From Endomicrobium sp. (GTDB taxonomy: Bacteria; Elusimicrobiota; Endomicrobiia; Endomicrobiales; Endomicrobiaceae): 64,000 bases of DNA. This document shows positions 12,448 to 13,418 of this stretch, piece after piece (position 1 is the first letter of the stretch; each line of letters begins with the position of its first letter). The translations under genes and the position numbers were made by a program. The notes beneath the pieces were generated by a model that made no database searches, was not told the origin of the DNA, and saw only the letters and a list, made by a program, of their open reading frames with translations. Location: assembly GCA_031290575.1 (NCBI GenBank), contig JAITNH010000003.1, positions 62,001-126,000 of the forward strand, read 5' to 3'.

Positions 12448-12651
12448 TCATTTCTTTGGTGCTACATATTGATTAACAAATTTTTTAGTATTATTATCTT
12501 TTTTCAATCTTTCATAAACCAAAACCCATGCACAATCTTTTGTCTTATCTACTTCACATTTACCATCAACAAAACTACCGCAAGATCCATTAACAAAACC
12601 TTTTGGGCACAGCATTCTTATTCTTGGTATTTTTCTATCATTATTTATCAT
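12448..12651 (-). CDS. Short MTHFR C-terminal (MetV-type) cysteine-domain protein, probably N-terminally truncated
   Basis: The 67-residue protein contains LCPKGFVNGSCGSF..GKCEV....CAWVLVYERLK, the signature of the methylene-THF-reductase C-terminal domain (MetV-like; Pfam PF12225 from memory), with four cysteines at residues 15, 24, 32 and 40. Family members I know usually carry an additional upstream CxxCGxCxL cluster; here the ATG lies right before the CPKG motif, so that cluster is absent. The ATG overlaps the pth stop as TAATG, so translation is coupled to pth. It may act with MetF encoded downstream, or be a decaying remnant. Confidence 0.7.
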   Translation of the reverse strand: MINNDRKIPRIRMLCPKGFVNGSCGSFVDGKCEVDKTKDCAWVLVYERLKKDNNTKKFVNQYVAPKK

Positions 12652-13418
12652 TATAGTTTCTTGTTTGCAAGCATATAAATTGCTTTATCAATTCCAAACA
12701 TGTTTATTGTTTTAAAAACATTAATCGATGTTCTTTTGATCAAATTTATTTTTTCGTTCTCTTTATTATTTTTATTATTAAATTCTGATAATACAAAACT
12801 AGCATATGGCAACATAGCAGCAGCAACCAAAGCAGCAACTAAATCCTCTCCTTGACGACGAATAGAATGATCACGTTTAAATTGAGCAGATGTCATAACA
12901 GCAGCAACCAAAGCAGCAACTAAATCCTCTCCTTGACGACGAATAGAATGATCACGTTTAAATTGAGCAGCAACCAAAGCAGCAGTTAAATTTTCAGGGC
13001 CCGTTCCAAGCTTCATTCTTGGGAAATTGTTCGTATGCAAATGTTCTATTACAGACCTTATCCCATTATGTCCACCAGAAGAACCAGATGTTCTGATCCT
13101 ACATTCCCCAAACTGTATCGAAAAATCATCATAGAAAATAAAAATTTCATCTGGATCAATACCATAATATTTCATAAAAAAAGCAATGACACCACCAGAA
13201 AGATTCATCGAAATCATAGGCTTTAAAAGCCATATTCTATCATTATTAAAGCTATTTAAAAAAGCAAAACTTGTATTTATTATTTTGTTACTATTAAATG
13301 ATAAATTTTCCGATTTTGCTATCTCATCCAAAATAATAAAGCCTAGATTGTGACGAGTATTTTCAAGTTTCTTTTCTGGATTTCCAAGACCAATAAAAAG
13401 CTTAATTTGTCTACTCAT
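12651..13418 (-). CDS. pth: Peptidyl-tRNA hydrolase with ~57-residue tandem repeat insertion
   Basis: Pth recycles peptidyl-tRNAs released from stalled ribosomes and is usually essential. The core is intact: GLGNP, NTRHNLGF with catalytic His23, MNLSGG, FYDDF, SGGHNGIRS and FPRMKLGTGP. The protein has 255 residues instead of ~190-200. The excess is an in-frame insert at about residues 144-200, between GTGPEN and the family's VLSEF helix, consisting of the unit QFKRDHSIRRQGED flanked by LVAALVAA, present twice. Removing it restores normal length. No SD precedes the ATG, which lies 18 bp after rplY. Whether the insert is tolerated as a surface loop or reduces activity is unknown. Confidence 0.93.
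   Translation of the reverse strand: MSRQIKLFIGLGNPEKKLENTRHNLGFIILDEIAKSENLSFNSNKIINTSFAFLNSFNNDRIWLLKPMISMNLSGGVIAFFMKYYGIDPDEIFIFYDDFSIQFGECRIRTSGSSGGHNGIRSVIEHLHTNNFPRMKLGTGPENLTAALVAAQFKRDHSIRRQGEDLVAALVAAVMTSAQFKRDHSIRRQGEDLVAALVAAAMLPYASFVLSEFNNKNNKENEKINLIKRTSINVFKTINMFGIDKAIYMLANKKL
12819..12990. repeat. Two identical 71-bp units plus partial third copy inside pth
   Basis: A 71-bp unit occurs at 12819-12889 and again, identical as far as I can read, at 12900-12970, separated by a 10-bp spacer (period 81 bp = 27 codons). The first 25 bp of the unit (agcagcaaccaaagcagc...) recur once more at 12966-12990 with two mismatches, so the array is bounded by short direct repeats. All lengths keep the pth frame open. 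It resembles in style the protein-coding palindromic elements of Rickettsia, though I see no strong internal palindrome. I found no other copy in the window. Confidence 0.9.

Follow-up and report, generated by a model that had tools for sequence, protein, structure and literature searches.

Features of the pth Locus

The window, that is, the whole stretch of 64,000 nucleotides analysed here (Endomicrobium sp., GCA_031290575.1, contig JAITNH010000003.1), carries a pth gene encoding peptidyl-tRNA hydrolase (Pth). Pth is a core enzyme of translation recycling and is also an antibiotic target. The gene lies in the order glmU-prs-rplY-pth-metF, and congeners showed the same order. Its product, P0001, has one Pfam Pth domain (PF01195, E = 4e-46), and the profile search gave 157.6 bits against a curated cut-off of 27. 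The six catalytic residues are kept, with N13, H23, N72, D97, H117, and N118 corresponding to E. coli N10, H20, N68, D93, H113, and N114. P0001 was assigned to the Pth1 family (PF01195) on this profile score and these six residues. It resembles other bacterial Pth1 proteins in its domain match, its conserved catalytic residues, and the single copy found, but differs from them in a lid loop of 66 residues and in the replacement of G12, Y15, and F66 (E. coli numbering). The features of the locus are listed in Table 1.

Table 1. Positions in the window of pth, its repeat, and the replaced substrate-cleft residues.
Feature	Position	Strand	Basis
pth, peptidyl-tRNA hydrolase, 255 aa (P0001)	12651..13418	minus	open frame and Pfam domain
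Repeat unit, first in coding order, 71 bp, QFKRDHSIRRQGED LVAALVAA	12900..12970	minus	
Repeat unit, second in coding order, identical 71 bp	12819..12889	minus	
Partial third copy (LTAALVAA), 24 of 26 bp the same as in the units	12966..12991	minus	
10-bp spacer between the identical units, within the 15-bp VMTSA segment	12890..12899	minus	
Lineage-specific insert, residues 146-201 (56 aa)	12816..12983	minus	congener alignments
Residues 15-18, EKKL, with E15 and L18 at the sites of G12 and Y15 in E. coli-type Pth	13365..13376	minus	alignment
S70, replacing F66 (substrate-stacking aromatic)	13209..13211	minus	alignment

A small cysteine-containing ORF (MINNDRKIPRIRMLCPKGFVNGSCGS...) was seen at about 12450–12650 on the minus strand, between pth and metF, and was judged by eye to be similar to a MTHFR C-terminal-type domain. 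In genome G031, a sequence similar to this ORF (KVCPKGFLNGPCGGFINGKCE) comes after pth. In genomes G017, G034, and G031, the glmU and prs matches lie in one uninterrupted frame of 606–813 aa, which is possibly a GlmU-Prs fusion or a read-through frame.

Anatomy of the Tandem Repeat

The lid of P0001 reads, in coding order, ENLTAALVAA / QFKRDHSIRRQGED LVAALVAA VMTSA / QFKRDHSIRRQGED LVAALVAA AMLPYAS. The insert as defined by homology is flanked by ...PENLT and MLPYASFVLSEF. A previous sequence-only reading of this DNA had described two identical 71-bp units with a 10-bp spacer and a 25-bp partial third copy, and all of these elements were recovered. The true period of the repeat is 81 bp (27 codons), with 12813–12893 repeated as 12894–12974, and the array has 98% matches. 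In a Tandem Repeats Finder scan of the contigs of this genome, the pth array scored 309, while the next best of the arrays listed scored 90, which excludes chance. The two copies are identical, and this does indicate a recent duplication, as had been proposed. The tandem repeat in pth is confirmed as real and, in the sequences searched, is confined to one locus and specific to this lineage.

Location of the Insert in the Lid Loop

Between the GTGP and FVLSEF motifs, P0001 is 57 residues longer, with the frame kept. The lid loop has 66 residues, compared with 9 in P0002, its intact relative from Endomicrobium. In the 30 aligned congener loci, about nine residues lead from GIGP to FVLSKF, and the corresponding loop of G017 reads ...TQNLT-MVK-FVLSEF. 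The alignment to E. coli Pth placed the insert within the segment HPGDKNKVVG, directly before FVL, and identified this region as the lid loop. The alignments agree with the sequence-only reading, which had put about 57 added residues, in frame, in a loop of Pth, and they show these residues to be specific to the lineage. In the congener G014, the same lid loop carries an independent 14-aa insert with a partial duplication that contains PRM.

In E. coli Pth, the lid loop meets the CCA end of the tRNA through residue K142, which is close to C74 and A73; the Km of the K142A variant is more than 5-fold larger (PMC11202043). The remaining lid of P0001 has no lysine, and all basic residues of the lid are located in two KRDHSIRR stretches. 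The translated insert may form helices carrying these two basic stretches. We speculate that they could replace the missing lid lysine in contacting the CCA end or its backbone. The AlphaFold model of P0001 had a pLDDT of 32 and was unusable, and the helices drawn in it for the insert (158–177 and 184–213) were not taken as evidence.

Coding Character and Composition of the Unit

The repeat contains no inverted repeats. Its predicted RNA folding is weaker than that of shuffled sequences (z = +3.65 for the region and +1.78 for the unit). An intron, an intein, and a structured RNA were considered and rejected, as the insert is too small, is in frame, and has no Rfam match above the gathering score. 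Of the six reading frames, only that of pth is free of stops, and in this frame the unit is coding-like (+0.30 nats per codon). Its codon adaptation is ordinary (65th percentile) and its GC content is 41% (94th percentile). Third-position T reaches 67%, which is the 99.6th percentile of gene windows, and its three arginines are all encoded by CGT, a codon used for 13% of the arginines in the genome. For the 42-bp QFKRDHSIRRQGED part, neither pth nor the rest of the assembly contained a match of more than 13 exact bp.

The third-position T content and the CGT arginines differ from the genome and suggest that the donor was foreign and the unit not a pure local duplication. This composition suggests that the unit derives from coding sequence not typical of the genes of this genome, but 27 codons are a small sample. 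Endomicrobium species are reported to have retained competence genes, to express them, and to acquire genes by transfer (PMC8809381), so that a foreign fragment could conceivably have been taken up. No donor of the insert sequence (QFKRDHSIRRQGEDLVAALVAA) was found in the GTDB contigs or in the contigs of this genome.

Perfect repeats in a draft genome may also arise from a chimeric join or a wrong copy number during assembly or amplification. We give this explanation very little weight. Both ends of the insert join intact pth in frame within a conserved gene order, the unit has coding codon statistics in the pth frame, and the searches for a donor sequence were negative.

Search for Further Copies

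Within the assembly, the 81-bp unit and its 49-aa translation were found at a single locus. This assembly is about 34% complete, with about 400 kb of readable sequence; contigs C1, C3, and C4 consist of N only. No copy of the unit was detected in the 60 relatives searched or in ten chosen congeners, and the other 41 genomes of the genus gave one match at chance level (G061, E = 0.275). That match lies within a CRISPR-like array read in frame, and a link to CRISPR was rejected as chance. The repeats of this array (G061, contig C173) translate as ISIHAPARGAT, FNSRARTRRD, and FQFTRPHEAR.

No confirmed relative of the unit was present in the GTDB contigs of 84,980 species. Nor was one found in IMG/VR, in the phage collections, or in the plasmids, in which a single 27-bp match was due to chance. 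The comparison of the insert with PDB gave no significant match, and no Pfam family exceeded the cut-off. A phage source was also rejected. The 66-aa insert had a weak match to PHROG 23744 (E = 0.0038), whereas the single unit had none, and this family had no match in the genome itself. We treated the PHROG match as chance inflated by the repeat.

In the 149 Elusimicrobiota genomes with a Pth, no second case of such an interruption was seen; the other split Pth matches seen were in G029 (broken) and G138 (across two contigs). Insertions were surveyed in 256 reciprocal best pairs between this genome and the congener G062 (median identity 68%). The 57-aa insert in pth was the only insertion of more than 15 aa specific to this lineage in these pairs. 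At least in its assembled part, this genome thus shows no widespread in-frame insertion into conserved genes.

The sequence-only reading had regarded the insert as a selfish, mobile repeat invading pth. A dispersed in-frame element of this type, like the Rickettsia palindromic elements (RPEs) or coding MITEs, would be expected to have further copies in the unassembled part of the genome. The insert is in frame, specific to the lineage, located in a loop, and slightly foreign in composition, and at about one-third completeness other copies could be missing from the assembly. Against such an element, the unit occupies one locus in the readable sequence, is absent from the 41 congeners, has no inverted repeats, folds more weakly than shuffled sequences, and is accompanied by no second insertion of more than 15 aa specific to this lineage in the 256 conserved genes. 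We therefore consider a dispersed element very unlikely, and on present evidence the repeat does not represent a mobile repeat family. By the earlier reasoning, a unit found only here would be a local duplication, and in this partial assembly it was indeed found only here.

Substrate Cleft and Evolutionary Rate

The statement that all catalytic residues remain is correct for the six residues named above, but three substrate-cleft residues are replaced. Thirty positions do not vary among 28 other Pths, that of E. coli among them, and P0001 is changed at 3 of these positions (G12E, Y15L, and F66S). Y15 and F66 of Pth stack the substrate (PMC11202043). With L18 and S70 at these sites, P0001 lacks the substrate-stacking aromatic feature usual in Pth1, which is not a criterion of family membership.

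Similar losses were seen in a few other species. F66 is lost in P0001, G017, G034, and G021, Y15 in P0001 and G017, and G12 in P0001, G017, and G034; each is invariant in the other Endomicrobium compared. The G12/Y15/F66 sites are E, L, and P in G017 and D, Y, and P in G034, and neither genome has a lid insert. The losses may be convergent or transferred. In the pth tree, P0001 is near G017 and G034. A transfer of pth from their lineage was considered, based on the shared E15/L18, the loss of F66, and this leaning of the tree. The AU test did not reject the grouping of P0001 with its species-tree neighbour G011 (p = 0.19), so convergence explains the losses as well as transfer does.

The terminal branch of this genome was 0.43 on pth, compared with 0.15 on rplY, prs, glmU, and metF, so that pth has evolved faster here than the syntenic genes around it. 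The ratio of 2.8 was the highest of 14 genomes, followed by 2.7 in G031 (both are point estimates). In the neighbour G011, the pth branch was 0.29, compared with 0.14 on the four neighbouring genes. A highly reduced genome was our first guess and was dropped, as the four neighbouring genes place this genome beside G011 with a normal branch. In G029 (contig C2, 76000–82000), pth appears frameshifted just upstream of the lid loop, with the surrounding gene order intact. In G031 (contig C2, 10000–16000), a short insertion (KTKIKHKTNSFGRHNG) was seen in the gate-loop region of a Pth with a very long branch.

One explanation of these changes is decay. In this case, the lineage would no longer need pth or would have replaced it, and the insert would be carried neutrally in a gene becoming a pseudogene. 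The loss of three invariant residues, the highest rate ratio, the apparent frameshift in G029, and the gate-loop insertion in G031 are in its favour. The open frame and the six catalytic residues are intact, however, and the length of the insert is divisible by three, with no stops in it. We regard decay as quite improbable.

Another explanation is functional adaptation, in which a long, basic, and possibly helical lid offsets the lost Y15, F66, and lid lysine and alters the handling of the CCA end or substrate. It draws on the position of the insert exactly at the lid loop, on KRDHSIRR occurring twice in a lid otherwise without lysine, on the replacement of Y15, F66, and G12 while the catalytic residues were kept, and on an intact frame with coding-like codons. 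G017 and G034 have both lost F66, and G017 also Y15, yet neither has a lid insert, which implies that compensation is not needed in those genomes. The structure model also gave no support. Adaptation is thus unlikely in our view, although it deserves some consideration. A more specific proposal would make the repeat a new lid module, with a Pth without its stacking pair handling the tRNA CCA end by a repeat-built lid of tunable length; we hold this to be unlikely as well, and slightly more so. The present lid can be read as neutral or as useful.

Proposed Origin and Comparison with Known Systems

We consider it probable that the insert is a single-locus intragenic tandem repeat, in which a short coding-like segment was gained or duplicated once, expanded in tandem, and accommodated by a Pth on which constraint is relaxed or altered. 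A coding-like segment of about 81 bp would have entered the pth lid loop in frame in this Endomicrobium lineage. Replication slippage or unequal recombination would then have produced the head-to-tail duplication of the segment. The first junction lacks the 15-bp VMTSA piece, which slippage between GCT repeats probably removed. With a unit of 27 codons, the frame is maintained whether copies are gained or lost. The lid loop belongs neither to the fold core nor to the catalytic residues, which may be why it tolerates changes in length. This tolerance was probably raised by the relaxed or altered constraint on P0001 at the substrate cleft.

The pth insert resembles RPEs in being a short in-frame insertion in a conserved housekeeping protein with the active site kept. 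RPEs are dispersed, with many copies and families (PMC10969869), and are palindromic, whereas the pth insert consists of tandem copies at one locus without a palindrome. It resembles PARCEL as a tandem coding repeat of about 25–27 residues, but PARCEL DNA is dyad-symmetric and recurs across taxa, while the pth unit has no inverted repeat and no relative was found. The insert also resembles an intragenic minisatellite (VNTR) in its perfect head-to-tail units, its length divisible by three, and its single locus. Intragenic minisatellites are best known from surface and repeat proteins, whereas this one is located in a substrate-facing loop of a translation-recycling enzyme.

A one-off expansion together with gene-specific relaxation fits the pth insert better than a mobile element does, and no new element family is revealed. 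In a symbiont lineage, core proteins with in-frame inserts need not owe them to a mobile element family. If real, this Pth would be a natural experiment on the extent to which the lid loop and the stacking residues of the enzyme can change.
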